From NCBI RefSeq assembly GCF_022828475.1, contig NZ_CP059557.1, forward strand, positions 5,193,470-5,257,469: DNA of 64,000 bases, written 5' to 3'. The position numbers and the translations under genes are program-made. Source of the DNA: Saccharopolyspora gloriosae (lineage in GTDB: Bacteria; Actinomycetota; Actinomycetes; Mycobacteriales; Pseudonocardiaceae). The stretch's first letter is position 1, and each line of letters starts with the position of its first letter. Below the pieces are notes generated by a model. It saw only the letters and a program-made list of their open reading frames with translations, was not told where the DNA came from and did no database searches. Positions 34,674-59,125 of this stretch are shown here, piece after piece.

Positions 34674-36602
34674 GTGTGCGGCCTGCTTGGACTTGTCTGT
34701 CCCACTGAAGAGAACGCCGGTTTCGCCGTCGACGCCGTGGCCAAAGCGCTGCCCTGCCAACGGCACCGGGGGCCGGACGAGAGCGACACCTGGCAGGGCG
34801 GTGAGGCCGTCTTCGGCTTCAACCGGCTGTCGATCATCGACCTGGAGCATTCGCACCAGCCGTTGACCTGGGGTCCGCCGGAGAACCCCGGCCGCTACAC
34901 CATCAACTTCAACGGCGAGATCTACAACTACCTGGAACTGCGCGCGGAGCTCGCCGAGCACTACGGCGCCCGGTTCAACACCGACGGCGACACCGAGGTG
35001 ATCGTCGCCGCCTACCACTACCTGGGCACCGCGATGGTCGGCCGGTTGCGCGGCATGTTCGCGTTCCTGATCTGGGACAGCGAGCGCCGCGTCGTGTTCG
35101 GCGCGCGCGACCCGTTCGGGATCAAGCCGCTGTTCTACGCCGACGGCCCGGGCGGCACGGCGTTCGCCAGCGAGAAGAAGAGCCTGCTGAGCCTGGCCAC
35201 GACGCTGCGCATCGGCGAGGACATCGATCACAAGGCGCTGCAGCACTACCTGACGCTGCAGTACGTCCCGGAGCCGGAGACGCTGCACCGCCAGATCCGG
35301 CGCATCGAGTCCGGCACCTCGTTCACCGTCTCCCCCGGCGGGCGGCTGGTGACCGAGCGGTACTTCGTGCCGAACTTCACCTCGAAGCCGGTGCGCAACG
35401 ACTCCGAGGCCCGGCGGTTGCACGATCAGGTCGTGGACGTCATGCGGGACTCGGTCGCCAAGCACATGCGCGCCGACGTCACCGTGGGCTCCTTCCTGTC
35501 CGGCGGCATCGACTCGACGGCGATCGCCTGCCTGGCCAAGGAGCACAACCCGAACCTGATCACCTTCACCACCGGGTTCGAGCGGCAGGGCTACTCCGAG
35601 GTGGACGTGGCCGCCGAGTCGGCCGCGGCGATCGGCGTGAAGCACGTGATCCGCACCGTCTCCCCCGAGGAGATGATGGAGACGCTGCCGCTGATCATCT
35701 GGTATCTCGACGACCCGGTGGCGGACCCGGCGCTGGTGCCGCTGTGGTTCATCGCCCGCGAAGCCCGCCAGCACGTCAAGGTGGTCCTCTCCGGGGAGGG
35801 CGCTGACGAGCTGTTCGGCGGCTACACGATCTACCGCGAGCCGCTGTCGCTGGCTCCGTTCGAGCGGGTGCCGGGCTCGTTGCGCAAGGCGATGGGCAAG
35901 GTCTCCACCGCGATCCCGGACGGGGTGCGCGGCAAGGACCTGCTGCGTCGCGGCGCGCTGTCGCTGGAGGACCGCTACTACGGCAACGCGCGGATCTTCC
36001 GCGACGACCAGCTCAAGTCGGTGATGGCGGCCTTCGACCCGGGCGTCTCGCACCGCGACGTCACCGCCGAGCCGTACCGCACCTCCGAGCACTGGGACCC
36101 GGTGACCCGGATGCAGCACGTGGACCTGTTCACGTGGCTGCGCGGGGACATCCTGGTCAAGGCCGACAAGGTGACGATGGCGAACTCGCTGGAACTGCGG
36201 GTTCCGTTCCTGGACAACGAGGTGTTCCGGGTCGCCAGCGGCATCCCGCTGGACCAGAAGATCACCCCGGAGACCACGAAGTACGCGCTGCGCCAGGCGA
36301 TGAAGCAGGTCGTGCCCGCGCACGTGCTCAACCGCCGCAAGCTCGGCTTCCCGGTCCCGATCCGGCACTGGCTGCGCGACGAGATGCACGACTGGGCGCG
36401 CAACATCATCCAGCAGTCGCAGACGGAACGGCTGCTGAACAAGACGGCGATCCTGCAGCTGCTGGAAGAACACCGTTCCGGCGTGCTCGACCACAGCCGT
36501 CGGCTGTGGGCGCTGCTGGTGTTCATGATCTGGCACGGCATCTTCGTCGAGGGCCGCTTGTCACCTGAGGTCCCGGAGCCGTACTACCCGGTCAAGCTTT
36601 GA
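34674..36602 (+). CDS. asnB: Asparagine synthetase (glutamine-hydrolysing)
   Basis: A 642-residue two-domain enzyme that makes asparagine (or amidates another carboxylate) with glutamine and ATP. The N-terminal class II glutaminase starts with GTG directly followed by the nucleophile Cys2 (CGLLGLVCPTEE). The synthetase domain has the PP-loop SFLSGGIDSTAIA and the conserved GEGADELFGGY. The AsnB position next to ctaC matches mycobacteria (Rv2201), where the enzyme amidates peptidoglycan diaminopimelate. The stop codon abuts the 3' end of a repeat copy split by IS481. Confidence 0.95.
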   Translation: MCGLLGLVCPTEENAGFAVDAVAKALPCQRHRGPDESDTWQGGEAVFGFNRLSIIDLEHSHQPLTWGPPENPGRYTINFNGEIYNYLELRAELAEHYGARFNTDGDTEVIVAAYHYLGTAMVGRLRGMFAFLIWDSERRVVFGARDPFGIKPLFYADGPGGTAFASEKKSLLSLATTLRIGEDIDHKALQHYLTLQYVPEPETLHRQIRRIESGTSFTVSPGGRLVTERYFVPNFTSKPVRNDSEARRLHDQVVDVMRDSVAKHMRADVTVGSFLSGGIDSTAIACLAKEHNPNLITFTTGFERQGYSEVDVAAESAAAIGVKHVIRTVSPEEMMETLPLIIWYLDDPVADPALVPLWFIAREARQHVKVVLSGEGADELFGGYTIYREPLSLAPFERVPGSLRKAMGKVSTAIPDGVRGKDLLRRGALSLEDRYYGNARIFRDDQLKSVMAAFDPGVSHRDVTAEPYRTSEHWDPVTRMQHVDLFTWLRGDILVKADKVTMANSLELRVPFLDNEVFRVASGIPLDQKITPETTKYALRQAMKQVVPAHVLNRRKLGFPVPIRHWLRDEMHDWARNIIQQSQTERLLNKTAILQLLEEHRSGVLDHSRRLWALLVFMIWHGIFVEGRLSPEVPEPYYPVKL

Positions 36603-37620
36603 GTCTTTTTGCTTTGGTGGTCGGGTAGCTGTTGTGTCTTGTGAGGTTGGGGACGCGGCTGGCGGGTGGGTGGCCGCCGAGTGCGGTGTGGCCGCGGTGG
36701 TGATTGTAGGTGTGGAGCCAGTGTGGGAGGGCGTTTCGGCGTTCGGTGTCGGAGAGGTAGAGCTGGGCGTAGGCCCATTCGTCGAGCAGGGTGCGGTTGT
36801 AGCGTTCGACTTTGCCGTTGGTTTGGGGTCGGTAGGGGCGGGTGCGGAGGTGTGTGATGCCGGCGGCGGTGAGTGTGGCGGTCCAGAGGTGGGAGCGGTA
36901 GCAGGAGCCGTTGTCGGTCAGTACTCGGAGCACGGTGATCCCGGCATCGGTGAAGAATGTGTGTGCTCGTTGCCAGAACGCGGCGGCGGTTTCGCGTGTC
37001 TCGTCGGGAAGGATTTCGGTGTAGGCAAGCCGCGAGTGGTCATCGACGGCGTTGTGCAGGTAGCTGTAGCCGATGGCGGGTTTCTTCCCGCCGGCGCGGC
37101 GGCGGTCGGTGACGGTGGCCTGGCTGTTGTGGCTGCCGGCCTGGCGGCCGAGGACTTTGCTGCCGCCGCCGTCGGGGACGTTGCCGACTTTCTTGATGTC
37201 GACGTGGACGAGGCCGCCGGGCTGCGGGTACTCGTAGCGGCGGATCACCCGCCCGGTGGCCCGGTCCAGGTGTGCGAGCCGGGCCAGCCTGTAGCGGCCC
37301 AAGACCCGGTGCACGGTAGCCGGGTTCAAGCCCAGCAAAAACGCGATCCGTGCCGGCCCCCACCGGCGGATCACCCGGACCTTGATGATCCGCCGCTCGG
37401 TGCGCGACGGAGTGCGCCGCGGACTGTGATGCGGACGCGAGGACCGGTCTGCCATCCCCGCCTCGCCCTCGGTGCGATACCGATCCGCCCACCGTTGCGC
37501 GGTGCTGGGCGAGACTTGGAAACGCTCAGCCGCACGCCGCAACGGCCAGCGATCGTCCACGACACACCGAGCCAGACGCAGCCTGCCCGTCTCAGTCAAC
37601 GGAGCGTTACGGTGACACAC
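36592..37620 (-). CDS. IS481-family transposase
   Basis: A 342-residue DDE transposase. An N-terminal helix-turn-helix (RLRLARCVVDDRWPLRRAAE) is followed by the catalytic core: first Asp in LVHVDIKKVG, second in LRVLTDNGSCYRS, and Glu in TNGKVERYNRTLL. GTG at 37620 has GGAGG just upstream, and that ribosome site lies inside a long hairpin. The frame does not stop at the element's left end (36630); it reads through the inverted repeat into flanking repeat DNA and ends at 36592, overlapping asnB by 11 bp. The last ~12 residues therefore depend on the insertion site. Confidence 0.9.
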   Translation of the reverse strand: MCHRNAPLTETGRLRLARCVVDDRWPLRRAAERFQVSPSTAQRWADRYRTEGEAGMADRSSRPHHSPRRTPSRTERRIIKVRVIRRWGPARIAFLLGLNPATVHRVLGRYRLARLAHLDRATGRVIRRYEYPQPGGLVHVDIKKVGNVPDGGGSKVLGRQAGSHNSQATVTDRRRAGGKKPAIGYSYLHNAVDDHSRLAYTEILPDETRETAAAFWQRAHTFFTDAGITVLRVLTDNGSCYRSHLWTATLTAAGITHLRTRPYRPQTNGKVERYNRTLLDEWAYAQLYLSDTERRNALPHWLHTYNHHRGHTALGGHPPASRVPNLTRHNSYPTTKAKRLKA

Positions 37621-37736
37621 GAGGACCTCCAGGTATTCGGTGCAGATGTCGTGATCCACACCGAACCCGGAGGTCCTCACTCATTCCAAGATCATCCGCC
37701 CCGTGTCCCCCGTTCACAACCTCCCGAGACACAACA
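36630..37736 (-). mobile_element. IS481-family insertion sequence, complete, with target duplication
   Basis: A 1107-bp element. The left end reads TGTTGTGTCTTGTGAGGTTG and the right end, reverse-complemented, TGTTGTGTCTCGGGAGGTTG, so the terminal inverted repeats match over about 26 bp with a few differences. Both sides are flanked by a perfect 6-bp direct repeat GGTAGC (36624-36629 and 37737-37742). The transposase looks intact. Removing the element and one GGTAGC rejoins the two halves of a dispersed hairpin repeat. Confidence 0.9.
37621..37678 (-). promoter_or_regulatory. Hairpin that would sequester the transposase ribosome site
   Basis: On the minus strand, GAGGACCTCC at the 5' side pairs perfectly with GGAGGTCCTC at the 3' side, and TTCGGTG pairs with CACCGAA further in. 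The 3' arm contains the Shine-Dalgarno of the transposase and ends at its GTG. Transcripts entering from outside would fold and mask translation, as known for IS10 and IS50. Confidence 0.6.
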
Positions 37737-37742
37737 GGTAGC

Positions 37743-37947
37743 GGAACCTCAGTGAGCCTCTCGCTGCGGGATCTTTTTCCCAAGTGGCTCCGCCACGAGG
37801 GAAAAAGCTGTCCTCGCGAGAGGCTCACTGAGAACCCGCCGGTGGTCGACCTGGGTACGTGGGCTAATCGCTGCGCGATTACAGGCACGGCCTACGGCCG
37901 CCAGGCAGGCTGGCTTCGCCGCCTTCGCGGACTTCGCCGCTCAAAAG
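37743..37947 (-). repeat. Dispersed hairpin element, copy A (main part; 3' tip at 36601-36629)
   Basis: Minus-strand orientation. The 81-bp hairpin is 37750-37830, with the outer stem CAGTGAGCCTCTCGC paired with GCGAGAGGCTCACTG, the conserved loop box GAGGACAG, the inner stem CTTTTTCCC/GGGAAAAAG and the tip GTGGC-GGA-GCCAC. The 5' flank (CCGACCACCGGCGGGTTCT) and tail (GGCGAAG repeats to about 37947) follow. The 3' tip (GACCACCAAAGCAAAAAG) is on the other side of the IS481 at 36608-36625. No gene is visible between here and the M23 peptidase. Confidence 0.85.
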
Positions 37948-38040
37948 GACTGTGTCGACGTGACGGGGCGACGACCTGGAGTGCGCCGGTGCACGTACTG
38001 AACCGGGTCTCAGTCGAGTTCTGATCTTGTGCATTGACGG

Positions 38041-38073
38041 ACGGCCGCTTCGCCCCCAGGACGAAGCGGCCGT
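38041..38073 (-). terminator. Terminator downstream of the M23 peptidase gene
   Basis: Perfect stem ACGGCCGCTTCG/CGAAGCGGCCGT with a 9-nt loop, 22 bp after the stop. Confidence 0.75.
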
Positions 38074-38095
38074 TCGCTCTTTCGACGCCGGTCGG

Positions 38096-38638
38096 TCAGC
38101 AGTCGTTCTTGCTGGTGAAGTCGGTGTGGCCGTTGTAGGGCACGTCCTTGCCGTTGAGCGTGACCTTGACGTCGTCACCGCCGGAGCGCTGCTCGAAGTG
38201 CAGGTGCGGGCCGGTGACGCCTCCAGTCGCCCCGGCCTCGCCGATCTTCTGCCCCAGTTTCACCTTGTCGCCCTTGGAAACGCTCTGCACCGACAGGTGC
38301 GCGTACCTGGTGGTCCAGCCCGAACCGTGGTCGATCTCGATCCAACGGCCATAACTGGTGTCGCCCTCGTTGCCGACGACACTGACGGTGCCTCCGGCGG
38401 AGGCCACCACGGGCATGCCGGTGATGCCGCTGCGCTGGAAGTCGACCGAGTTGGCCGGGCTGTGCCCGCTGAACGTGGCCGCGGTGACGGTGACGCCGCA
38501 GCGGAACGGGACTTGGAAGTTCGGTGCGGCGAAAGCGGGCGTGCTGCCCGCCAGCACGCCGAGGCCGGTGAGCGCCGCGGTCGCCGCCGCGGCTCCGAGT
38601 CTGCGGGTGAGGGTCGTCGCAGGTCTTGCTCCGGTCAT
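38096..38638 (-). CDS. Secreted M23 family metallopeptidase (LytM-like)
   Basis: A 180-residue exported protein. A signal peptide of about 37 residues ends in AFA. The mature part is a single LytM domain with zinc-ligand motifs near SGHSPANSVDFQ and in the C-terminal GPHLHFEQR; GRWIEIDHGSGWTTRYAHLS is also typical. It is expected to cut peptidoglycan cross-bridges or act as a binding/regulatory factor. The small size and lack of a separate wall-binding domain resemble short actinomycete M23 proteins. Confidence 0.9.
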   Translation of the reverse strand: MTGARPATTLTRRLGAAAATAALTGLGVLAGSTPAFAAPNFQVPFRCGVTVTAATFSGHSPANSVDFQRSGITGMPVVASAGGTVSVVGNEGDTSYGRWIEIDHGSGWTTRYAHLSVQSVSKGDKVKLGQKIGEAGATGGVTGPHLHFEQRSGGDDVKVTLNGKDVPYNGHTDFTSKNDC

Positions 38639-38839
38639 CAGAACGCCTCCTTGCTCCGGGCATCCGGCGCGCCGGATGCACCTGACGGGGAGATCGATCC
38701 GACCACAGGTCGCTCGACAAGAACAGACGGATCAGGCCGTATTTCAGGTGAATCGTTGACGAAAACTCGCCAACTCCCGCTGATCGCCGCTCGGTTCGCG
38801 CGGACGATTCCGCGTTGAGGGCAGGGCTATCCGAACGTG

Positions 38840-38888
38840 CGGCGGCCTCCTCCCGGGGATCCGGAGATCCGCGGCGAGGAGGCCGCCG
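38840..38888 (-). terminator. Terminator downstream of the alpha-amylase gene
   Basis: Stem CGGCGGCCTCCTC/GAGGAGGCCGCCG with a 23-nt loop, about 30 bp after the stop. Confidence 0.7.
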
Positions 38889-38916
38889 AGGTCGCACTAC
38901 ATCAACAACAGCGAGA

Positions 38917-40389
38917 TCAGCTCAGCTTCGCACCGGCGTGCAGCGCGATACCCGAGTTGCCCGGCACCGAGGTGGTGACGGTGCCGTCGTCCCGCACTTG
39001 CGCGGTCGCGCCGGTGCAGGATCCGTTCTCCAAGGAACCGGACATCACGTCGCAGTACGTCCCGGCGGGCAGCGAGGTCTGGAATTCCTGGTCGGTGATC
39101 TCGCCGTCCTCCCGGTTGATCACGACGAAGCCGGCGTCAGCGCGGCCGAACGCGATCCGGCCGGAGCCGTCGTCCCACCAGTTCGTCAGCTCCTTGCCCT
39201 GCACGGCCTGGTGGAACCCGGCCATCCCGGCGATGATCGGCCGCTGGTGCTCGCACACCCACGCCTGGTCGGCGCAGTTCGCGGGGCTGGTGCGGCCGTC
39301 GGAGTCCGCGGGCGGACCGGCGTCCGGGTCGTCGAAGGCGAAACCGGAGATCAGCTGCGGCGTGCCGTACGGGTAGGCGAGCATGAACGCGTTCGCCAGG
39401 TCGTAGGAGACGCCGTCCTTGTAGGTCAGCGTCGGCTCGCTGCGCTGCGTGTCGTGGTTGTCGATGAACACCACGGCCTGATCGCTGGGCAAGGTCATCT
39501 CGTCCGGCACGTTCGCCAGCTGGGCCAGCGAGCCGTCCTTGAACGCGGAGCTGACCTTGTGGTGATACGCGAATTCGGTGACGTCGCCGTTGCCTGCGTA
39601 CTCACCTGCCGACGTGGTCTGATCCGCGATGACCTCTTGGAACATGTACGGCTTCGCGCCGGTATCGGGCACCGTGTTCAACCCGCCGAAGATCGCGCCG
39701 ACGTCCTCCGGCGGCATGTGCTTCACGCCGTCCACCCGGAACCCGGAGACGCCGAGGCTGATCAGGTCGTTGAGGTACCCGATCTCGGCGGAACGCACGT
39801 AGTCGGTCCCGGTCTTGAGGTCCGAGAGCCCGACGAGTTCGCAGTTGCGGACCTCCCACTTGTCGTCGTAGTCGGCGATGTCGCGGCGGCAGTCGCTGAA
39901 GTCGGCGTCGCTGTAGAGACCCGGGTAGTCGTACTTCGAGTGGGTCGTGCCCGCGCTGCCCACCGCGTCGCTGGCGGCCATGTGGTTCACCACGGCGTCG
40001 GCGTAGATCTCCACACCGGCGTCGTTGCAGGCGGAGACCATCGAGGCGAACTGTTCGCGGTCGCCGCGCCGGGTCTCCAGCTGGTAGCTCACCGGCTGGT
40101 AGTCCTGGTACCAGGGGTGGCCCTCACCGGAGAGCTGCACGTGCTCCTGGGGCGGCGAAACCTGGACCGCGCCGAATCCCTTCGGGCCGAGCGTGCTGCG
40201 ACATTCCTGCGCGATCGACTCCCACGGCCACTGGAACATCTGCACGATCGGCCCGGAAACCGGAGCCGTCGCCGGGGCCGCCGCGGGAGCCGGTGCCGGA
40301 GCGGGCGTCGCCGGGGTGACGGCGGCCGCGGCGGGCACGACGGCCACGCCTGCGAACGCCACTGCCAGAGCTAGTACGGGTAATCGCAT
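38917..40389 (-). CDS. Secreted alpha-amylase (GH13, animal/Streptomyces type)
   Basis: A 490-residue exported glycoside hydrolase that cleaves internal alpha-1,4 bonds in starch. A signal peptide is followed by an Ala/Pro-rich linker (TPAPAPAPAAAPATAP). GH13 conserved regions are DAVVNH (I), GFRVDGVKH with the nucleophile Asp (II), FQEVI with the acid Glu (III) and FIDNHDTQR (IV). Cysteines in the C-terminal part (ANCADQAWVCEHQRP) fit the disulfides of this subfamily. It stands alone, with its own terminator and a ~180-bp upstream region that may hold its promoter. Confidence 0.93.
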   Translation of the reverse strand: MRLPVLALAVAFAGVAVVPAAAAVTPATPAPAPAPAAAPATAPVSGPIVQMFQWPWESIAQECRSTLGPKGFGAVQVSPPQEHVQLSGEGHPWYQDYQPVSYQLETRRGDREQFASMVSACNDAGVEIYADAVVNHMAASDAVGSAGTTHSKYDYPGLYSDADFSDCRRDIADYDDKWEVRNCELVGLSDLKTGTDYVRSAEIGYLNDLISLGVSGFRVDGVKHMPPEDVGAIFGGLNTVPDTGAKPYMFQEVIADQTTSAGEYAGNGDVTEFAYHHKVSSAFKDGSLAQLANVPDEMTLPSDQAVVFIDNHDTQRSEPTLTYKDGVSYDLANAFMLAYPYGTPQLISGFAFDDPDAGPPADSDGRTSPANCADQAWVCEHQRPIIAGMAGFHQAVQGKELTNWWDDGSGRIAFGRADAGFVVINREDGEITDQEFQTSLPAGTYCDVMSGSLENGSCTGATAQVRDDGTVTTSVPGNSGIALHAGAKLS

Positions 40390-40567
40390 CGGACAACTTT
40401 CTCGATTGAGTAATTGCCCGATGATCAGATGTTCTTTCGCCCTGTTCAGTCAATGCGCCATTGGAACCAGCGTTGAGCTGCTCTTATGCTCGCAAGTTCT
40501 TACAACCACCCCGCTCGCCGCCGCCCGTCCATCGGCGCACTCGGGCCTCCGGCGGAGAATGCGGGAC

Positions 40568-40780: not shown

Positions 40781-40795
40781 CACCGGCGCACGCGA

Positions 40796-40828
40796 ACGGC
40801 CCGGTCCCCCGTCGGGGTACCGGGCCGT
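40796..40828. terminator. Bidirectional hairpin between the S4 gene and erpA
   Basis: CGGCCCGGT pairs with ACCGGGCCG and CCCC with GGGG around a short loop, between convergent genes. Confidence 0.75.
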
Positions 40829-40845
40829 CGTGGGCGCTGGAGCGG

Positions 40846-41474: not shown

Positions 41475-41486
41475 TACCCTGGAGGT
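41475..41486 (+). promoter_or_regulatory. Leaderless-type -10 box for the DUF3043 gene
   Basis: TACCCT, then 6 nt (GGAGGT), then GTG. The GGAGG is too close to the start to work as a normal ribosome site, which favours a leaderless transcript. Confidence 0.6.
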
Positions 41487-42125: not shown

Positions 42126-42191
42126 CCCGCACCAAGCCTCACCTAGCGCTGTTCGGGCCTGTCCGGTGACCAGGAACGCCATTCAGATTGA

Positions 42192-42372
42192 TCTTTTGCC
42201 GGTGTCTTGTCAGCGGCGAAGCCGCTGAGCGGCGACCACCAAAGCAACCGGCACCGCCGCGGGTTCTCAGGTGTCTTCTCGCGAGGACAGCTTTTTCCCT
42301 CGTGGCGGAGCCACTTGGGAAAAAGATCCCGCAGCGAGAAGACACCTGAGGTTCCGCCACCCGCCCCACCTG
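42192..42372 (+). repeat. Dispersed hairpin element, copy B
   Basis: Plus orientation, between the DUF3043 and aldo/keto reductase genes. The hairpin is 42268-42348 (81 bp), outer stem CAGGTGTCTTCTCGC/GCGAGAAGACACCTG. The loop boxes GAGGACAG and ATCCCGCA, inner stem and tip are identical to copies A and D. The 5' tail starts CTTTTGCCGG and contains GGCGAAGCC. The 3' flank is GAGGTTCCGCCACCC. Confidence 0.85.
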
Positions 42373-47407: not shown

Positions 47408-47547
47408 GCCTGACTCCCCAGATGGTGACTTGCATCACCCGGAAGCTACTCCGGCCCACCGACAATCACTCGGGCCGAAAGCAACGACACCCTCCCCGAC
47501 CTGCGAAGAGGGTGCCGTTGAGAACGCCGGACCCCAGCACGAAACGA

Positions 47548-47762
47548 TCTTTTCGCCGCTGCTTGCCAACGGCGAAGCCGAATCCTCGCGGCCGAAGGCC
47601 GTGCCTGGATTTGCGAAGCACAGAGCCCACGTCACAAAGCCGACCACCGGCGGGTTCTCAGTGGTTTCCTCACGAGGACGGCCTTTTCCTTCGTGGCGGA
47701 GCCACTTGGAAAAAGATCCCGCAGCGAGGAAGCCACTGAGGTTCCGCTACCCGGACACCCGA
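47548..47762 (+). repeat. Dispersed hairpin element, copy C
   Basis: Plus orientation, ending about 15 bp from the ilvE stop. The hairpin is 47659-47738 (80 bp), outer stem CAGTGGTTTCCTC/GAGGAAGCCACTG with one G-T pair. The 5' part has CCGAAGGCCGTGCCTGGAT and CCGACCACCGGCGGGTTCT. The 3' flank is GAGGTTCCGCTACCCGGACA. The rest of 47408-47776 shows no gene. Confidence 0.85.
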
Positions 47763-47776
47763 GCAGGCCCCCGAGA

Positions 47777-48880
47777 TCAAGCCAGCGGGACCATCCAGCC
47801 GTGGTCGTCGGGGGCCGTGCCCTGTTGGATGGCGGTGAGCTGATCGCGCAGCTTCATCGTCACTTCGCCCGCCTGGCCCTCTGCGATGCCGAATTCGCCG
47901 TCCTGGTGCTTCACGTGCCCGACGGGAGTGATCACGGCCGCGGTGCCGCAGGCGAACACCTCGGTGAGCTCGCCGGAGCGAGCGCGCTTCTCCCACTCGT
48001 CGGTGGTGATCCGCCGCTCCTCCACCGGAAGCCCCAGGTCCTCGCCGAGCTGCAGCACCGAGGAGCGGGTGACGCCGGGCAGCAGACTGCCGGACAGCTC
48101 GGGGGTGACCAGGCGCGCGTCGGAGCCGGAGCCGAAGACGAAGAACAGGTTCATCCCGCCCATCTCCTCGACCGCGCGGCGCTCCACCGCGTCCAGCCAC
48201 ACCACCTGGTCGCAGCCGTTCTCCACGGCCTGCGCCTGCGCGACGAACGAGGCCGCGTAGTTGCCCGCGAACTTCGCCGCCCCGGTGCCGCCGGGCGCGG
48301 CCCGCACGTACTCGTGGCCGAGCCACACCGTGACCGGCTTGACCCCGCCGGAGAAGTAGGAACCGGCGGGTGAGGCGATCACCGAGTACAGGTACTCGTT
48401 CGCGGGCCGGTTCACGCCGAGGCTCACCTCGGTGGAGATCATGAACGGCCGCAGGTACAGCGAGCTCTCCCCCGCCTCCGGCACCCACGCGCGGTCGACG
48501 TCGATCAGGTCGCGCAGCGAGTCCAGGAACACCTGCTCGGGCAGTTCGGGCATCGCGATGCGCTGCGCCGAGCGCTGGAACCGCTGCGCGTTCTGCTCCG
48601 GCCGGAACGCCGCGATGGAGCCATCGGGCTGCCGGTAGGCCTTCAGGCCCTCGAAGATCGCCTGCGCGTAGTGCAGCACCGTCGTCGCAGGGTCGATCTC
48701 GAACGAGTGGTACGCCTCGATCTTCGCGTCGTACCAGCCGCGGTCCGCGGAGTACCGCACGGTCGCCATGTGATCGGTGAAGAACTTCCCGAATCCCGGG
48801 TTCGCCAATACGTCCGCGCGGTGCGACTCGGTGGCGGGATGCGAACTGGGGAACCGGGTGAACGAGAGTTCTTCTGTCAT
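47777..48880 (-). CDS. ilvE: Branched-chain amino acid aminotransferase
   Basis: A 367-residue fold-type IV PLP enzyme that transaminates Leu, Ile and Val in both directions. The PLP lysine is in [16 protein letters not shown]; other marks are [37 protein letters not shown] and [17 protein letters not shown] start. Between repeat copy C at its 3' end and a divergent small membrane-protein gene upstream. Position matches mycobacterial ilvE after the cob genes. Confidence 0.95.
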
Positions 48881-49025
48881 GTCAATACCGTATCGCGCGC
48901 CTCAGAACAGTGGAAACGGTGGACCAGCAAGTCGGTCCTCCTAGTTTTCCGGGCTCAGCGACGGCATCCGTGCCGGTACCGCGGCGAAGTGAGCGAAGCC
49001 GTATCCGATGATCGCGGCGGCGCTC

Positions 49026-49037
49026 TATGATGGACGC
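49026..49037 (+). promoter_or_regulatory. Leaderless-type -10 box for the small membrane protein gene
   Basis: TATGAT, 6 nt (GGACGC), then ATG; the best consensus -10 of the set, with no ribosome site. Confidence 0.65.
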
Positions 49038-49337
49038 ATGACTCAGCCGGAGAAGCTGCCCGTGAGCGGGCCGACAACGGTGCAGCAGGACACGTTGGCC
49101 GCCGCTTTGGGCCTGCTGATGCCGCTGGGCGGCGGACTGCTGGTGATGTGGGGCTACGCCTGGCTCGACGTGTTCGGCGCGATCATCGGCGCGGCCGGCG
49201 TCGCCTGGTGGGGTTTCTGGTGGTACGGCAAGCACAAGACGCTGTTCCCCAAGGACCTGCGCGGCGGCCAGGTCGGCGGCATCGCAGCCCTCGCAGCCCT
49301 GTTCGGCCTCTTCTTCTTCATCGCGCTGGGAAGCTGA
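49038..49337 (+). CDS. Small conserved membrane protein of unknown function
   Basis: A 99-residue protein with three hydrophobic helices (AAALGLLMPLGGGLLVMWGY, VFGAIIGAAGVAWWGFWWYG, GIAALAALFGLFFFIALG) and a short polar N-terminus (MTQPEKLPVSGPTTVQQDTL). No signal peptide or enzymatic motif. The ATG is at the predicted leaderless transcription start. Its TGA stop codon is the first base of a remnant of the dispersed hairpin element, so an insertion may have trimmed or replaced the original 3' end. Confidence 0.78.
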   Translation: MTQPEKLPVSGPTTVQQDTLAAALGLLMPLGGGLLVMWGYAWLDVFGAIIGAAGVAWWGFWWYGKHKTLFPKDLRGGQVGGIAALAALFGLFFFIALGS

Positions 49338-49361
49338 TCCCGCAGCGAGAAGACACCTGAG
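49336..49361 (+). repeat. 3' remnant of the dispersed hairpin element (copy G)
   Basis: GATCCCGCAGCGAGAAGACACCTGAG (26 bp; 49336-49361) is identical to the right arm of copy B, without the left arm. Its first bases form part of the stop codon of the preceding gene. Confidence 0.7.
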
Positions 49362-51744: not shown

Positions 51745-53232
51745 GTGAGCACGCCGAAACTCGCCCTCACCGACACCAAGGCCGCGAAGCTGACCGCGGA
51801 CGTTCTGGTCATCGGCACCATCTCGGGTGCCGACGGTCCGGAGATCGCGCCCGGCGGCGAGGAGGTCGCCGCGGCCTTCGACGGTGACCTGGCGAAGGTG
51901 CTGGCGACGCTCGGCGCCACCGGCAAGGCCGAAGAGGTCGTGAAGCTGCCCGCGAGCGGACTGCGCGCGGACGTGCTGCTGGCCGTCGGCCTCGGCAAGA
52001 TCGCCGGCGACGCCCCCACCGGCGAGCAGGTGCGCCGCGCCGCGGGCTCCGCGGCCCGCGCCCTCAGCGGCGTCGAGCACGCCGCGACGACGCTGGGCGC
52101 GCTGGATCTCGCCGCGACCGTGCAGGGCACCGTGCTGGGCGCCTACTCGTTCCGCAAGTACAAGTCCGAACCCGGCGACGACCCGGTGGCCCAGGTCGAC
52201 CTGATCGTGCCGGACGCGAAGGACGACACGGCAAAGCACGCGCTCAAGGGCGGCACCGCGATCGGCGAGTCCGTCACCATCGCCCGTGACCTGATCAACA
52301 CCCCGCCGAACGACCTGTTCCCCGCCTCCTTCGCCGAGCGCGCGAGCGAACTCGCCCGTTCCGCCGGGCTGGAGGTCGAGGTGCTCGACGAGGCGGCGCT
52401 GCGCAAGGGCGGCTTCGGCGGCATCCTCGGCGTCGGTTCCGGCTCGAGCCGCCCGCCGCGCCTGGTGCGGCTGCGGCACAAGGGGCCGAAGGCCGCGAAG
52501 AAGGTCGCGCTGGTCGGCAAGGGCGTCACCTTCGACACCGGCGGCATCTCGCTCAAGCCCGCGGGCTCGATGGACGAGATGACCTCGGATATGTCCGGTG
52601 CGGCCGCGGTGATCGCCACGATGGTGCTGGTCTCGAAGCTGAACTACCCGCTGGACGTGACCGCGACGGTGCCGATGGTGGAGAACATGCCCTCCGGCAC
52701 CGCCTACCGGCCCGGCGACGTGCTGCGCATGTACGGCGGCAAGACCGTCGAGGTGCTCAACACCGACGCCGAAGGCCGGTTGATCCTGGCCGACGCCATC
52801 GTGCGGGCCGCCGAGGACGAGCCGGACTACCTGATCGAGACCTCCACGCTCACCGGCGCGCAGGTGGTGGCGCTGGGCAAGCGCACGCCCGCTGTGATGG
52901 GCGACGAGGACTTCCGCGACCGGGTCGCGAAGCTCTCGCAGGCCACGGGCGAAGGCGCCTGGCCGATGCCGCTGCCCGAGGAGCTGCGCGGCGACCTGGA
53001 CTCGAAGCTCGCCGACCTCGCCAACGTCGCCGGGCACCGCTGGGGCGGCATGCTCTCGGCCGGGCTGTTCCTGAAGGAGTTCGTCGCCGACGGCCTGCCG
53101 TGGGCGCACATCGACGTGGCCGGTCCGGCGTACAACACGAACTCGCCGTGGGGCTACACCTCGAAGGGCGGCACCGGCGTTCCGGTGCGCACCATCGCGG
53201 CCGTGCTCGCCGACATCGCCGAGAACGGCTGA
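51745..53232 (+). CDS. pepA: Leucyl aminopeptidase (M17)
   Basis: A 495-residue cytosolic exopeptidase with a two-metal site. The catalytic C-terminal domain has [14 protein letters not shown], the signature [13 protein letters not shown] and the region [13 protein letters not shown]; the N-terminal domain (about 1-170) is the regulatory or DNA-binding half of this family. GTG at 51745 follows CCGGAGGA. A strong terminator follows at 53249. The gene is at the position of mycobacterial pepB (Rv2213). Confidence 0.95.
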
Positions 53233-53248
53233 CCCGATTCCGCCGGCA

Positions 53249-53284
53249 CCGGAGGCCCGCCGAGTCCGCTCGGCGGGCCTCCGG
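53249..53284 (+). terminator. Strong terminator after pepA
   Basis: Perfect 16-bp stem CCGGAGGCCCGCCGAG/CTCGGCGGGCCTCCGG with a TCCG loop, 17 bp after the stop. Confidence 0.9.
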
Positions 53285-53379
53285 CGTGCGGTGACCGCTG
53301 CACCGGCGCGGGATCCGTGCTGTGAGCCGCGTCTCAAAGGGATCACCACTGGCCGCACTCGCGATGCCAGGATGGAGCG

Positions 53380-53889
53380 GTGAGCGAACCCATCGGGCGG
53401 CAACCGACCTCACCGGCGCCTGCGCGGCACGGTTTCGCGGTCGAAGTGGTGTGGACCGGCAACACCGGCGCCGGCACCAGCAGCTATCACAGCTACGAGC
53501 GGACCCACGAGGTGCGTTCGGAGGGCAAGAACGCCATCGAGGCCTCCGCGGATCCCGCGTTCCTCGGCGACTCCGACCGGTACAACCCGGAGGAGCTGCT
53601 CATCGCATCGCTGTCGCAGTGCCACATGCTGTGGTTCCTGCACTTGGCGGCGGATCACGGCGTGGTGGTGATCGGGTACCACGACCGGGCGCAGGGAGTT
53701 CTCGCGGAGAACGCCGACGGCTCCGGCCGGTTCCGGGAGGTCGTGCTCAGCCCCGAGGTGACCGTCAAGGACCTGGCCAGCGTGGACGTCGCGGAGGCGC
53801 TGCACGACCGCGCCCACGAACTCTGCTACATCTCGAAGTCGGTGAACTTCCCGGTGCGCCTGACACCGTCCACCAGGGTCGCGAACTAG
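53380..53889 (+). CDS. OsmC family peroxiredoxin-like protein
   Basis: A 169-residue OsmC/Ohr-fold protein. The first conserved cysteine is in LLIASLSQCHMLWFLHLAAD and the second in RAHELCYISKSVNFPV, the pair that reduces organic peroxides in this family. The Arg/Glu partners are less clear, so substrate range is uncertain. GTG start with CAGGAT 6 nt upstream may be leaderless. Its TAG stop overlaps the stop of the convergent gene (shared CTAG). Confidence 0.88.
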   Translation: MSEPIGRQPTSPAPARHGFAVEVVWTGNTGAGTSSYHSYERTHEVRSEGKNAIEASADPAFLGDSDRYNPEELLIASLSQCHMLWFLHLAADHGVVVIGYHDRAQGVLAENADGSGRFREVVLSPEVTVKDLASVDVAEALHDRAHELCYISKSVNFPVRLTPSTRVAN

Positions 53890-54227
53890 CCCAGGTCGCG
53901 GCGTCGTTCCCGGTCCCGTAAGACCCGCTGGCGAGCCTGGTAGTCGCGCATCCGCTGCGGATAGCCGAGTTTCGACACCTCGTAGCAGGGCATGCCGTGC
54001 TTGCGGGCGAAGCGGAACGCCGCGTCGGGGCCGTTCACCCGGCGCCGGGTCCACTCGCCGTCGTGCGCGACCAGCAGCACCGTGGTCTCGGTGACGGTGG
54101 TGCGCGGTTCGACGAACGCCTCCACGCCGTGGCGTTGCTCGGCCCAGGTCCGCAGGTGGTCGGCGTCGCGCGAATCGGCCGGTCGCCCGGCACCTCGCCT
54201 GCGGCGGAAACGATCGAATAGGCCCAC
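53886..54227 (-). CDS. Conserved actinobacterial hypothetical protein
   Basis: A 113-residue basic protein of unknown function. The N-terminus is VGLFDRFRRRRGAGRP, and the centre has TETTVLLVAHDGEWTRRRVN. The C-terminus is KLGYPQRMRDYQARQRVLRD, arginine-rich. Homologs are common near the pyruvate/2-oxoglutarate dehydrogenase genes of actinomycetes, as here beside lpd; that is from memory. GTG at 54227 follows GGAGGC. Confidence 0.75.
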   Translation of the reverse strand: MGLFDRFRRRRGAGRPADSRDADHLRTWAEQRHGVEAFVEPRTTVTETTVLLVAHDGEWTRRRVNGPDAAFRFARKHGMPCYEVSKLGYPQRMRDYQARQRVLRDRERRRDLG

Positions 54228-54536
54228 AGCATTCGCCTCCCTGAACCCGGAAGCCCGGCCGCCCGGATTCGATTCACCTCGGGCGGCGACGCACTCGGAG
54301 CCACCTTCGAAAACCAGTGCTCCCGTTCGAGATGATGCCACCGGGAGCCTGTGACGAAGCTGAGAATCGGAAAAAACGATTCAGTGTCCTCGCGCACGTT
54401 CCGGCGATCAGAGCGAGCCCACGTCGCGTCGTTCCTTCGGGTGGTGACAAGATGGCTGCCAGGTGTTCCGTGCCTCGCGCGACAGCCGGGACGGCGGCAC
54501 CTCAGCGATTCAACGATGGCTGTCGAGGAGTGCGAA
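54228..54536. other. Intergenic region between the hypothetical gene and lpd
   Basis: 309 bp with no gene supported. It should hold divergent promoters. Possible -35/-10 elements for lpd lie around GGTGACAAGATGG (54441-54455), but none is convincing. Confidence 0.35.
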
Positions 54537-55906
54537 GTGACCGACACGTCCGCCGATCTGGTCATTCTCGGCGGCGGTTCGGGCGGCTACGCCTGCGCTT
54601 TCCGCGCGGCTGAGCTGGGCCTGTCCGTCGTCCTCATTGAAAAGGACAAGCTCGGGGGACTTGCCTGCACCGCGGGTGCATTCCCACCAAGGCTTTGCTG
54701 CACGCCGCGGAGGTCGCCGACTCCGCGCGCGACGGAGATCAGTTCGGTGTCAAGACCTCCCTTGAGGGCATCGACATCGCGGGGGTGAACTCCTACAAGG
54801 ACGGTGTCGTCGGCAAGCTCTACAAGGGTCTGCAGGGCCTGGCCAAGGCGCACAAGGTGACGCTGGTCGAAGGCGCGGGCACCCTGGTCGACGCCAACAC
54901 CGTCGAGGTCGACGGCACCCGCTACACCGGCAAGAACATCGTGCTGGCCACCGGTTCGTACTCCAAGTCGCTGCCCGGCCTGGAGCTCGGCGGCCGGGTC
55001 ATCGCCAGTGAGCAGGCGCTGAACCTGGACTACGTGCCGGAGAAGGTCGTGGTGCTCGGCGGCGGTGTGATCGGCGTGGAGTTCGCCAGCGTGTGGCGCT
55101 CCTTCGGCGCCGAGGTCAACATCGTCGAAGCCCTGCCGCACCTGGTGCCCAACGAGGACGAGTTCGCCTCGAAGCAGCTGGAGCGCGCGTTCCGCAAGCG
55201 CGGCATCAAGTTCAAGACCGGCGTGAAGTTCACCGGCGCCACCCAGACCGACTCCGGTGTCTCGGTGAGCCTGGAGAACGGCGACCAGCTCGACGCGGAC
55301 CTGCTGCTGGTGGCCGTCGGCCGCGGCCCGAACACCGCGGGCCACGGCTACGAGGAGGCGGGCGTCAAGCTGGAGCGCGGCTTCGTCGTCACCGACGACC
55401 GCCTGCGCACGAGCCTGCCCGGCGTCTACGCGGTCGGCGACATCGTGCCCGGCCTGCAGCTGGCGCACCGCGGCTTCCAGCAGGGCGTGTTCATCGCCGA
55501 GGAGATCGCGGGCCAGAACCCGCAGTCCATCGACGAGGCCGGCATCCCGCGCGTCACCTACAGCCACCCCGAGGTGGCCTCGGTGGGCCTGACCGAGAGC
55601 GCTGCCAAGGAGCAGTACGGCTCGGTGCAGACCTTCACCTACGACTTGGCCGGTAACGGCAAGAGCCAGATCCTCAAGACGGCGGGCGCGGTGAAGCTGG
55701 TCCGCGCCACCGACGGGCCGGTGCTCGGCCTGCACCTGGTCGGGGACCGGGTCGGCGAGCTCATCGGCGAAGCCCAGTTGATCTACAACTGGGAGGCGCT
55801 GCCCGAGGACGTGGCACCGCTGGTGCACGCCCACCCCACGCAGACCGAGGCCCTCGGCGAGGCGCATCTCGCCTTGGCCGGCAAGCCGTTGCACGTCCAC
55901 GGCTGA
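54537..55906 (+). CDS. lpd: Dihydrolipoamide dehydrogenase, E3 (frameshifted as sequenced)
   Basis: The FAD-dependent E3 component that reoxidises dihydrolipoyl groups of 2-oxo acid dehydrogenases. The FAD motif VILGGGSGGYACAFRAAELG lies in one frame. Right after GGL the sequence for the redox disulfide (expected GTCLHRGCIPTKALLH) appears in the next frame. One G missing from the GGGGG run at 54654-54658 explains this; with it restored the protein is 456 residues and otherwise normal. The NAD domain (VVVLGGGVIGVEFAS) and the C-terminal His-Glu pair (HAHPTQTEALGE) are intact. GTG at 54537 follows GAGGAG. It is directly upstream of sucB. Confidence 0.9.
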
Positions 55907-55972
55907 GCCGTCTCGGTTCGCATCCCGCACCAGCACAGCACCCCGCCACACCGCACGAGGAGTCAGCGACCG

Positions 55973-57754
55973 ATGTCCTTCTCCGTCCAGATGCCCGCGC
56001 TAGGCGAAAGCGTCAGCGAGGGCACGATCACCCGGTGGCTCAAGCAGGCCGGCGACACCGTCGAGGTCGACGAACCCCTGCTGGAGGTCTCCACCGACAA
56101 GGTCGACACCGAGATCCCGTCCCCGGCCGCCGGTGTGCTCCAGCGCATCGTCGCCGAGGAGGACGACACGGTGGAGATCGGCGGCGAGCTCGCCGTCATC
56201 GGTGACAGCGCCGATGACGGAGCCGCCGCACCGGCGCAGGAAGCGCCCGCCGCGGAGCCCGCTCCGGCGCAGGAGTCCGCTCCGGCGGCTCCGGCCCAGG
56301 AGGCTCCGGCCGCCGAGCAGCCCGCTGCTCCGGCCGCGCCCGCTTCCGGTGGTTCGGCGCAGGGCACCGAGGTGCCGATGCCCGCGCTGGGCGAGAGCGT
56401 CAGCGAGGGCACGATCACCCGGTGGCTCAAGCAGGTCGGCGACACCGTCGAGGTCGACGAACCCCTGCTGGAGGTCTCCACCGACAAGGTCGACACCGAA
56501 ATCCCCTCGCCGGTGGCGGGCACGCTGCTGGAGATCGCCGCGGCAGAGGACGACACGGTGGAGGTCGGCGGCAAGCTGGCCGTCGTCGGCGAGCAGGGTG
56601 CCGCTGCGGCGGCCCCGGCGCAGTCCGAGCCCGAACCGGAACCGGCCGCTCCGGCTCCCGAACCGGAGCCGGAACCGGCTGCTCAGGCACAGCCCGCTCA
56701 GCCCGCGGCCCCGGCTCAGCCCGCGGCCCCGGCTCAGCCGGCCGCTCCGGCTCAGCCCGCGGCCCCGGCTCAGGAAGCCCCGGCGCAGCAGTCGTCGGCT
56801 CCTTCCGGGAGCACGCCGTACGTGACGCCGCTGGTGCGCAAGCTGGCCAACCAGCACGGCATCGACCTGTCCACGATTCAGGGCAGCGGCGTCGGCGGCC
56901 GCATCCGCAAGCAGGACGTGCAGGCCGCGGTGGACGCCGCGAAGTCGCAGACGGCCGCTCCGGCGGCACCGGCGGCGGCGAAGTCCAGCGCTCCGGCCCC
57001 GCGAGCCGAGCAGTCGGACGAGGCGGACGCGCTGCGCGGCACCACGCAGAAGATGTCCCGCCTGCGTCAACTGCTGGCTCGCCGCATGGTCGAGTCGTTG
57101 CAGACCGCGGCGCAGCTGACCACGGTGATCGAGGTCGACGTGACCCGCATCGCCAAGCTGCGCCAGCAGGCGAAGAACTCCTTCGAGGCCGCGGAGGGCG
57201 TGAAGCTGTCCTTCCTGCCCTTCTTCGCGAAGGCCGCCACGGAGGCGCTCAAGCTGCACCCGAAGGTGAACGCCTCGGTCAACGAGGAGACCAAGGAGAT
57301 CACCTACCACGCGGCCGAGCACCTGTCGGTCGCGGTGGACACGCCGCGCGGCCTGGTCTCGCCGGTGATCCACGACGCCGGGGACCTGAACCTCGGCGGG
57401 CTGGCCCGCAAGATCTCCGACGTGGCCGAGCGCACCCGGAACAACAAGCTCAAGCCGGACGAGCTGTCCGGGGGCACGTTCACGATCACCAACACCGGCA
57501 GCCGCGGCGCGCTGTTCGACACCCCGATCCTGAACCCGCCGCAGGTGGGCATGCTGGGCACGGGCACCGTCGTGAAGCGTCCCGTGGTGGTCTCCGACGA
57601 CAACGGCGGCGACACCATCGCGATCCGTTCGATGGTGTACCTGGCGCTGTCCTACGACCACCGGCTGGTCGACGGCGCGGACGCCGCCCGGTTCCTCAGC
57701 ACGCTCAAGCAGCGGCTGGAAGACGGCGCGTTCGAGGCCGACTTGGGCCTGTGA
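55973..57754 (+). CDS. sucB: Dihydrolipoamide acyltransferase (E2) of 2-oxo acid dehydrogenase, two lipoyl domains
   Basis: A 593-residue E2 core protein. Two N-terminal lipoyl domains (about 1-80 and 130-210) carry the lipoylated Lys43 and Lys172 in [11 protein letters not shown]. Ala/Pro/Gln-rich linkers include repeated QPAAPA units. A peripheral-subunit-binding domain ([20 protein letters not shown]) and the C-terminal catalytic acyltransferase domain with [11 protein letters not shown] follow. In actinobacteria this protein can serve both pyruvate and 2-oxoglutarate dehydrogenases. Follows lpd by about 66 bp; lipB, which attaches the octanoyl precursor, is downstream. Confidence 0.95.
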
Positions 57755-57776
57755 CGCCCCGGATGTGACATTTCCG

Positions 57777-57812
57777 CGGAGGGCCGCTCACCTGCTGGTG
57801 AGCGGCCCTCCG
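57777..57812 (+). terminator. Strong terminator after sucB
   Basis: Perfect 16-bp stem CGGAGGGCCGCTCACC/GGTGAGCGGCCCTCCG with a TGCT loop, 22 bp after the stop. Confidence 0.9.
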
Positions 57813-57881
57813 TGCTGTCCGGGGTCGGTTCACCTCGGCGAAATTGTCGCGCGCGGAAGATCATTGCGGGACGATCGGGGC

Positions 57882-58769
57882 ATGCGCGTGGTTATCGCCG
57901 GTTCGTCCGGGTTGATCGGCACGAGTCTCGTGGCGGCGTTGCGGCAGGGTGAGCACGAGGTGCGGCGGCTGGTGCGACGGCGACCGGAGGCCCCCGACGA
58001 GCACGGCTGGGATCCGGCCGAGGATCTGCTCGACGAGGAGGCGCTGGCCGGCGCGGACGCGGTGGTGAACCTGTGCGGCGCGGGCCTGCTGGATCGCCGC
58101 TGGAGCACCGAGCGCAAGGAGCTGCTGGTGTCCTCGCGGGTGCGGCCGACCGCGCTGCTGTCCGAGGCGGTGGCCCGGCACGGCGTGCCGACGCTGATCA
58201 ACGGTTCGGCCGTCGGCTACTACGGCGACACCGGTGAGCTGCCGGTGACCGAGTCGACGCCGCCGGGTTCGGGTTTCCTCGCGGATCTGTGCCGCCAGTG
58301 GGAGGCGGCGACGAGCCCGGCGCAGGGTGCGGGCGCGCGGGTGGTGGTGTCGCGCACCGGCCTGGTGATCGCCCCGGCGGGCGGCCTCATCGGCAAGCTC
58401 AAACCACTGTTCTCGCTGCTGCTGGGCGCGAAGCTCGGCGACGGATCGCAGTACATGCCGTGGATCTCGCTGGACGACGCGGTGGGTGCCCTCCGGTTCC
58501 TGGTGGAACGCGACGAGGTGTCCGGCCCGGTGAACCTGACCGCCCCGTCCCCCGTCACGAACGCCGAGTTCACCCGCGAACTCGGCGCGGCGCTGGGCCG
58601 CCCCGCCCCCTGGAAGGCCCCGGAGTTCGTCCTGCGAACAGCACTGGGCCAAGCAGCCGACGAAGCCCTCCTCACCGGCCAACGAGCCATCCCCCAACAA
58701 CTCGACGAACACGGCTACCCCTTCGCCCACCCCACCCTGGACACGGCCCTCACCGCCATCACAGGCTGA
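57882..58769 (+). CDS. TIGR01777 family NAD-dependent epimerase-like oxidoreductase
   Basis: A 295-residue Rossmann-fold protein. The dinucleotide motif [14 protein letters not shown] is at the N-terminus; [19 protein letters not shown] and [11 protein letters not shown] occupy the positions of the SDR core, and the C-terminal helix [15 protein letters not shown] matches the DUF1731 tail. The family (E. coli YfcH, mycobacterial Rv2216) has no firmly assigned substrate. The ATG has GACGAT 6 nt upstream. It lies between sucB and lipB, an arrangement shared with mycobacteria. Confidence 0.9.
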
Positions 58770-58844
58770 CCCCGCCCGCCGCCCCCGCGCACAGCAGGCA
58801 CCCAAAGCCCGCAAAGCACTGCGAACCGAACCTGCCTCGCAGCA

Positions 58845-59125
58845 AAGCCCTGTCTCGCGACCGAAGGCCGTCCTTTTCGGCCGAAGGCCGTACCTCTAGG
58901 CGAAGCCGTGCCCTCCGGCCGAAGGCCGCGCATCGCGGCGAAGCCGTGCCTGGATGCGCGAAGCGCATAGCCCACGTCGAAAAGCCGCTCACCGGCGGGT
59001 TCTCAGCTGTCTTCTCGCGAGGACAGCTTTTTCCCTCGTGGCGGAGCCACTTGGGAAAAAGATCCCGCAGCGAGAAGACAGCTGAGGTTCCGCCACCCGA
59101 CCACCCAAGCAAAAAGAGCCGTGAA
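58845..59125 (+). repeat. Dispersed hairpin element, copy D (longest, with five tail repeats)
   Basis: Plus orientation, between the epimerase and lipB genes. The 5' tail (about 58858-58955) is about five degenerate ~19-bp units of the type CCGAAGGCCGT/GCGAAGCCGTG. The hairpin is 59004-59084 (81 bp), outer stem CAGCTGTCTTCTCGC/GCGAGAAGACAGCTG, with the standard loop boxes, inner stem and tip. The 3' flank extends to CACCCAAGCAAAAAG, matching the 3' tip of copy A. No gene lies in 58770-59137. Confidence 0.85.

Follow-up and report, generated by a model that had tools for sequence, protein, structure and literature searches.

A hairpin of about 107 nt that lies behind stop codons in a Saccharopolyspora genome belongs to a family of non-coding mobile repeats, polymorphic between sister species. 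Most copies are surrounded by a strand-polar shift in base composition (hereafter, the halo). It is anchored about 49 nt away from the hairpin, and its boundary follows the hairpin rather than the neighbouring gene.

Architecture of the Hairpin

The window, the whole stretch of 64,000 nt that was analysed, contains four copies that a preliminary description had located and assigned a common fold, and both sequence and folding bear this out. The fold at 42268 has z = -7.5 when modelled as RNA and -8.3 when modelled as DNA (0/200 shuffles as stable in each), and the fold at 47659 has z = -5.0 as RNA (again 0/200 shuffles as stable). The fold was described correctly, but its length of ~81 nt was too short: the stem extends through a GTT/GTT loop into GCGG/CCGC, and the conserved hairpin measures ~107 nt. 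The whole unit spans ~165–300 nt or more and comprises the hairpin, a short leader on one side and mini-hairpins on the other; the tails once listed as GGCGAAG repeats are one or more mini-hairpins with a GNA loop. The natural sense strand is the reverse complement of the strand read at first. This strand assignment, the halo, an IS481-family insertion and a fifth fragment are features beyond those initially reported.

The hairpin of copy 1 lies at 37737–37842 (reader strand -, sense strand +; identified by sequence and alignment, with an R1 match of 125.3 bits) and is followed by a mini-hairpin array at 37843–37955 (- strand; end approximate). Its leader (36603–36629, + strand) sits directly behind the TGA (36600–36602) of an asparagine synthase gene and is separated from the hairpin by the IS481-family insertion (36630–37736, no strand assigned), which has inverted ends TGTTGTGTCT and a 6-bp direct repeat, GGTAGC, at 36624–36629 and 37737–37742; the same junction occurs in 5/150 copies in the genome. 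Copy 2 occupies 42200–42370 (hairpin 42256–42362, + strand). Copy 3 occupies 47547–47776 (start approximate; hairpin 47647–47752, + strand) and ends at the stop codon of an ilvE-like gene (47777–48880, - strand). Copy 4 with its array occupies 58820–59118 (ends approximate; hairpin 58992–59098, + strand). On the ORF calls of this analysis, all four copies lie between genes, as had been claimed. The fifth fragment is a lone right arm at 49335–49361 (+ strand), at the stop codon of the gene 49008–49337; it is apparently a deletion remnant, and its sequence is missing at the orthologous site in the relatives G001, G002 and G003.

Covariation between the arms had been proposed from the four copies. 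In a first alignment of seven copies (these four and three others), only 7/40 pairs were changed on both sides, with invariant neighbours around the seven doubly changed pairs. At the level of the family the proposal holds: in a 61-sequence alignment from several genera, the covariation score was 0.326 against 0.097 in shuffles, far above both controls. The compensatory changes are real, but they are weaker evidence of selection for pairing than had been claimed, since template switching at hairpins can likewise yield matching arms (PMC8794818). The mismatched GTT/GTT loop is kept in 146/150 copies in the genome, and one arm is copied onto the other in only two of 150; therefore, the structure is probably conserved for a reason. 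Interchangeable complementary segments in the stem stand alongside fixed internal loops, and other genera do not retain the inner-stem T-run (CTTTTTCCC). The idea that hairpins lose one half asymmetrically was also considered and set aside, most lone right halves being contig ends.

Size and Turnover of the Family

Among 1925 candidates in the 6.88 Mb Saccharopolyspora genome, all 150 that were scored matched the hairpin family, and a right-arm pattern found 291 sites, which supports a dispersed, structured, intergenic repeat family. The same pattern found 8–361 sites in each of nine relatives. The range of the family includes Halopolyspora, which NCBI places incertae sedis rather than in Pseudonocardiaceae. 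The preliminary description did not recognise a known family, and Rfam gave no match in the window at the gathering score; a permissive search returned only microRNA-precursor hairpins, all below threshold. Phage and plasmid collections gave no match, and no account of the family was found in the titles and abstract openings of the literature searched.

The suggestion of a MITE- or REP-like mobile family gained support from a comparison of empty sites. When 32 copies were mapped to the sister species G001, 16 were in the same orientation, four were inverted and 12 lacked the hairpin; one of the 12 (6101892) is a truncated element, leaving 11 empty sites. The copy at 47647 is absent from G001, G002 and G003. 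Only one of the 16 orthologous pairs in the same orientation shares its 9-nt stem type; between sister species, insertion positions as well as stem types are replaced quickly. At the empty sites, where the orthologous genes exist without the element, intergenic DNA has been replaced, and no target-site duplication could be defined.

Position Behind Stop Codons and the Halo

That most copies abut a stop codon is true of the family; of the four copies in the window, however, just two (37736 and 47647) do so on the hairpin side. On that side, 118 copies in the genome meet a gene end, and 107 of these have the hairpin edge within 41 nt of a stop codon (31/149 copies meet no gene end there). The leader faces the gene and the element sits just behind its stop codon. 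In tandem contexts, 42/44 '--' copies lie within 41 nt of the stop codon, and '--' outnumbers '++' by 44:24 in this genome, 19:3 in G001, 12:2 in G018 (a second genus) and 7:0 in G017.

In the halo, C gives way to T or G on the sense strand beside and beyond the element, and the opposite change lies 54–83 nt upstream. The frequency of T at third positions in the last 10 codons is 0.252, against 0.035 in 46 control genes. Compared with G001, T here against C there stands at 16:0 over the last nine codons, and A against G stands at 41:1 in 44 codons on the distal side. Distance from the hairpin fits the boundary better (-logL 1169.7) than distance from the stop codon (1200.5), and in the histogram from this analysis 73/77 copies exceed 0.2. 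The halo is alike on both replication strands and for either direction of the distal gene, and it is present in codons and also in non-coding DNA. Upstream T is 0.24 in 13 cases without an array versus 0.36 in 87 of the array type. The halo recurs in G001; G018 shows the G-poor patch upstream and the shift on the distal side again, but no clear T-rich zone, and in G017 the halo is absent (20 upstream and 14 distal genes).

Several sources of the bias were examined. Rho or translation was rejected, because the same zones occur in non-coding DNA and at distal genes of either direction. Besides C>T (41/178) and C>G (51/178), the distal side shows more G>T (21/239 vs 7/248) and less G>C (15/239 vs 31/248). 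Cytosine deamination alone does not fully match this spectrum, so the bias may come from selection for a G/T-rich strand or from drift towards one. The lost C shows no sharp neighbour-base motif, about half being changed in every context. Mutual pairing of the two upstream zones was not convincing (true partners -15.9, swapped partners -15.3, sd of means 0.29).

Relation to Known Systems

Profile searches of this genome and its relatives found no mobilising enzyme for the family. The Y1 (HUH) transposase TnpA-REP (PF01797) had no match in this genome (G000) or in G001–G003, with one match in G004, two in G005 and four in G010; reverse transcriptase (PF00078) had none in G000, G001, G003–G005 and G010 and one in G002, both profiles having been run on G000–G005 and G010. 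Y1 transposition and reverse transcription or DGR-like mutagenesis were rejected accordingly, Y1 and RVT_1 being missing from this genome. The IS91-like Y2 transposase (PF04986) was found in 0/16 genomes, and the control genomes were silent too.

In diversity-generating retroelements, a hairpin just downstream of the gene end directs change in the 3' end of the gene (PMC3240598). The present family likewise has a hairpin behind the gene end and a changed 3' end, but this genome lacks a reverse transcriptase, and the change is a loss of C or G according to strand, not of A. REP/REPIN repeats with TnpA-REP (RAYT) resemble the family in their high copy number, intergenic position, palindromic form and ssDNA-hairpin logic (PMC2817692, PMC3116915, PMC8266576). 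Unlike them, this hairpin is much longer, is fixed behind stop codons, carries a halo and has no Y1 transposase in its own genome or in G001–G003. PMC3733652 gives the REP as a 20–40 bp palindrome with a GTAG/CGTC tag; no such tag was seen by eye in the ~107-nt hairpin, which lies outside this size. ERIC, enterobacterial RU and other MITEs are ~100–170 bp imperfect palindromes, non-autonomous and located between genes (PMC2759123, PMC2229807). The present family shares the properties of a MITE in being non-coding and dispersed with polymorphic insertions. It differs in having a stem segment that covaries and can be exchanged, an array of mini-hairpins, a halo and an orientation relative to the gene upstream, and no parent IS was found.

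Proposed Mechanism and Alternatives

About an even chance is given to the reading that the family is a non-autonomous palindromic mobile element (MITE/REP-like) copied through single-stranded DNA. Copying or re-insertion would go by way of a single-stranded intermediate. The exposed part of the sense strand would begin ~49 nt upstream, take in the element and reach 100–300 nt further, and a short upstream stretch of the other strand would be exposed as well; a nick near -50 followed by strand displacement could have this effect. Damage to the exposed strand, or its error-prone repair, would leave the halo, which would fade with the age of the copy. The hairpin with its fixed loops may be the recognition site of a putative host or helper enzyme, the variable stem a spacer in which pairing alone matters, and new stem types would spread when active master copies take over. 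Against this reading, no target-site duplication could be defined, and the searches found neither a mobilising enzyme nor an autonomous copy; no hairpin halves flanked a gene in 146 loci and the window, apart from one loose pair (L272). The missing halo of G017 and the partial one of G018 also count against it. The sense strand is the presumed lagging-strand template in 42/47 perfect-arm copies in G018 and 37/46 copies in G017, but this genome has no such bias (76/150).

A structured 3'-UTR RNA is rather unlikely; here the sense transcript would fold behind the stop codon and terminate transcription, block 3' decay or insulate neighbours, and selection would have kept such copies. Strong covariation, the excess of '--' over '++' in all four genomes, the orientation of the copies and a stop adjacency far tighter than first noticed all favour it, as does the adjacency that G017 keeps without a halo. 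Yet 31/149 copies meet no gene end with their hairpin side, the T-run is not shared by other genera, and a halo is found even beside elements into which no gene is read, as well as distally for either gene direction. Orthologous genes at empty sites also manage without the element. Intrinsic terminators are stable hairpins with a T run directly after them; calls for them in the window region only modestly exceed shuffles (11 vs 6.0 ± 2.6), matching parts of the arms only. A chromosomal protein-binding site, comparable to BIMEs bound by gyrase or nucleoid proteins, with flanks selected for a G/T-rich strand, appears improbable. It would suit the conserved loops, the G/T-directed shift (including more G>T and less G>C) and the scarcity of copies in the terminus region (2/150 vs 26 expected at 2.5–3.7 Mb, an interval picked after the data were seen), but not the fast turnover of positions and stem types, nor a halo that is absent in G017 and weaker in the array-less type.

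Integron attC sites follow a stop codon, always in one orientation, work as folded single strands and combine a free stem sequence with fixed unpaired features; their core boxes are GTTRRRY/RYYYAAC. The hairpin resembles them in stop-codon position, fixed orientation, free stem sequence and fixed unpaired features, and the possible use of the lagging-strand template in G018 and G017 would fit relics of integron cassettes. However, the family consists of single dispersed copies without integrase or cassettes, and no core boxes were seen by eye at the hairpin base. The integron integrase IntI (TIGR02249) was found above cut-off in none of 16 genomes, so that the attC-like reading once offered finds no support in its strict sense, and cassette relics are very improbable.

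Implications

A more specific form of copying through single-stranded DNA is put forward tentatively, as possible and short of probable: insertion may be mutagenic by design, a putative enzyme nicking ~50 nt from the folded hairpin behind the stop codon and copying the element via the displaced sense strand, which would leave a strand-switching footprint of C loss in both neighbouring genes. If the proposal is true, the family would represent a new route of DNA movement, free of reverse transcriptase and Y1 and aimed at gene ends, in which the strand switches at a constant ~49 nt from the hairpin, a geometry for an enzyme to explain. It would also caution against reading a role as RNA into hairpin arms merely because they match. 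Its readable scar would report how a bacterial palindromic repeat moves, which is hard to settle for REP- or ERIC-like repeats, and hundreds of dated insertions would serve as a test set. The proposal would, in addition, provide a mechanism by which gene ends beside a non-coding repeat come to be rewritten by it.

Hairpin Architecture and Pairing

The four hairpins of the window (37737–37842, minus strand; 42256–42362; 47647–47752; 58992–59098) lie where the preliminary description had placed them, fold far above shuffled sequence, and are all copies of one ~107-nt hairpin. A lone right arm (49335–49361) is a fifth trace of the family in the window. On the strand used in that description, the left half reads GCGG-GTT-CTCAG, a variable segment of ~9 nt and CGCGAGGACAGC, followed by the inner stem and tip, and the right half reads GATCCCGCAGCG, the complement of the variable segment and CTGAG-GTT-CCGC. 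At least one mini-hairpin with a GNA loop (AGCGGCGAAGCCGCT, GTGCGAAGCAC, or arrays of GGCGAAGCC units) is found on the 5′ side of the hairpin and a leader of ~25–30 nt on its 3′ side.

Compensatory change in the stem, claimed from these four copies, was recovered in an alignment of 61 sequences from element-bearing genera. The covariation score is 0.326, compared with 0.097 ± 0.006 in 500 shuffles (0/500) and 0.06–0.13 in slid structures; 88.4% of cells pair (75.6 in shuffles), and 19 of 39 pairs show two-sided change. The outer helix is paired in 98.8% of cells, with two-sided change in 11 of 23 pairs, and helix 3 in 69.3%; the innermost tip of other genera is not alignable with own-genus pairing. 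The internal loop had been described as fixed, and its GAGGACAGC and GATCCCGCA columns are indeed invariant or nearly so. Among 150 copies of the Saccharopolyspora gloriosae genome, the 9-nt arms are perfectly complementary in 118, carry at least one mismatch in 26, and are unparsable in 6, and the GTT/GTT mismatch is retained in 146. At least four of the 26 combine arms from different types of the variable segment, a sign of recombination between copies. Recombinant-armed hairpins are located at 1170761, 5960364 and 6439336 of the genome. The right arm has been rewritten from the left arm in two copies; template switching (PMC8794818) is another way in which matching arms can arise.

ORF 55973–57754 of the window contains a 221-nt direct repeat (55985–56205 and 56372–56592, 87% alike), possibly repeated domains of one protein.

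Copy Number and Host Range

When the genome, a single 6,878,695-bp contig that includes the window at 5193470–5257469, was searched with a covariance model of the family as had been proposed, the model matched all 150 of the candidates scored (E 4e-26 to 2e-16) out of 1925; the family therefore has at least 150 members, and the copies used in later counts are the best-scoring and probably the youngest ones. Sites matching the right-arm pattern with up to three mismatches number 291 in this genome; 361, 203, 133, 36, and 32 in five congeners; and 14, 42, 115, and 8 in the relatives G010, G017, G018, and G019, compared with 0–2 per genome for the backwards pattern. Under stricter filters, the model finds matches in 10 of 41 genomes: the own genome, 5/5 congeners, and 4/19 other genera of the family, with 0/16 among genomes from other families of the order. 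An exact pattern occurs in 106 stretches of named genomes, and all 80 listed belong to Saccharopolyspora (Pseudonocardiaceae) or Halopolyspora (incertae sedis at NCBI). The hairpin has no match in Rfam at the gathering score, and the family has none in phage and plasmid collections. Contigs of the Saccharopolyspora sp. NFXS83 draft end inside the hairpin (loci L281, L283, L285, L318, and L320 among others), and the family is therefore undercounted in short-read assemblies. The presumed terminus (2.5–3.7 Mb) holds 2 of the 150 copies vs 26 expected; dnaA was identified by eye at base 1 of the contig.

Position Relative to Genes

The neighbouring genes, called by a simple codon-based caller, are convergent around 74 of the 150 copies, tandem around 68, and divergent around 7, and one copy overlaps a gene call. 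The proximity to stop codons noted in the window extends to the whole family: where a leader-side gene end is present (118 copies), 107 have the stop codon −6 to 41 nt away from the edge of the hairpin (TGA 92, TAG 12, TAA 3). Of the tandem copies whose leader adjoins a gene end, 42/44 are equally close to the stop, despite the long gap to the next gene. The same adjacency is found in the sister species G001 (29/31), in G018 (24/28 within 50 nt), and in G017 (20/21 within 68 nt; no parsable hairpin at 9/30 loci). The natural sense of the element is therefore the reverse complement of the strand first described.

Turnover Between Species

Empty sites in relatives had been suggested as a check on mobility. 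For the 32 copies with both flanks mapped to the fetched parts of G001 (~90% identical), the orthologous site carries a hairpin in the same orientation in 16 cases, in the opposite orientation in 4, and none in 12, one of which has a truncated element; only 1 of the 16 same-orientation pairs has a stem type in common. The copy at 47647 is absent from G001, G002, and G003. The site at 42256 carries a differently shortened copy in G002, an inverted copy of another subfamily in G001, and no copy in G003. These hairpins are polymorphic, fast-turning, non-coding repeats, and single absences could reflect loss instead of a site never inserted. The truncated element, at the G001 orthologue of position 6101892, has its hairpin core deleted and its leader and array retained.

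An IS481-family insertion (36630–37736, with the 6-bp repeat GGTAGC) lies within the first hairpin copy of the window; the listed transposase ORF (36592–37680) extends beyond its end. The identical junction, at the same base, is found in 5/150 copies, and the base of the hairpin is therefore a hot spot for this IS.

The Flanking Halo

Third codon positions adjoining the element are abnormal. On the sense strand, C is replaced by T at 24–50 nt before the hairpin: the 107 genes have a third-position T of 0.252 in their last ten codons and the 46 control genes one of 0.035 (Fisher p 6e-29 with codons taken as independent). At 54 to 83 nt, A and C take the place of G, and beyond ~84 nt the composition is normal. 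On the far side, beyond the array, A and C substitute for G on the convergent gene's own strand over ~45 codons (86 genes, and also at four-fold sites), so C has been lost from the element's sense strand. The near boundary follows distance from the hairpin better than distance from the stop (−logL 1169.7 vs 1200.5), with a midpoint of 49 nt and a width of 3 nt; the second-zone fit is poorly determined. Of the 77 copies offering enough sites, 73 have at least 20% T in the near zone. This halo is alike with the first-described strand leading or lagging and beside convergent and tandem neighbours, and is also found at 27 copies lacking an upstream gene end; intergenic DNA behind 44 tandem copies is low in C over ~300 nt. 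Halo T is 0.24 in the array-less type (13 genes) vs 0.36 in the array type (87 genes).

Sites that are empty in G001 show the direction of change clearly. Across 7 genes, own T faces G001 C 16 to 0 in the last nine codons. In the distal 44 codons (10 genes, one adjoining the truncated G001 element), own A faces G001 G 41 to 1 and own C faces G001 G 51 to 15; further out, the counts are 13:3 and 24:22. G001 shows the halo too, in 29 upstream genes and 14 distal ones; 426 control genes there have a normal composition. G018, of another genus, has a G-poor patch at 45–71 nt and the distal shift, the T-rich zone not being clear, and G017 has no halo (20 upstream, 14 distal genes).

Origin of the Halo

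Exposed single strands may scar the flanks of the element. Such a scar accounts for the strand polarity, the sharp boundary set by the hairpin, the slow far-side decay, and the absence in an older branch. On the far side, C>T (41/178 vs 17/228) and C>G (51/178 vs 31/228) are accompanied by a rise in G>T (21/239 vs 7/248) and a fall in G>C (15/239 vs 31/248), and the substitution spectrum is therefore broader than cytosine deamination. Error-prone gap filling and selection for a G/T-rich strand are possible sources of the halo as well. A purely functional RNA explanation fails where there is no transcription in the needed direction. With the origin of these two genomes assumed to be where the contig begins, the sense strand lies on the lagging-strand template in 42/47 perfect-arm copies of G018 and 37/46 copies of G017, orientation flipping between chromosome halves, unlike in the own genome; the bias is not significant in a second G018 subfamily (17/26) or in the own genome (76/150). 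For some lineages this pattern agrees with a single-strand route; for others it says nothing either way.

The mobilising enzyme was sought among several classes. RVT_1 has one match in G002 and none in the own genome, G001, G003–G005, and G010; Y1_Tnp has none in the own genome and G001–G003. The Y2_Tnp search gave 0 matches, its control being likewise silent. No integron integrase lies above cut-off in 16 genomes, and no hairpin halves enclosing a gene were seen. The early suggestion of a MITE/REP-like mobile family is upheld in that the hairpins form a new family of a known kind, the palindromic intergenic mobile repeat, and both its siting behind stop codons and the scar in its flanks are unusual.
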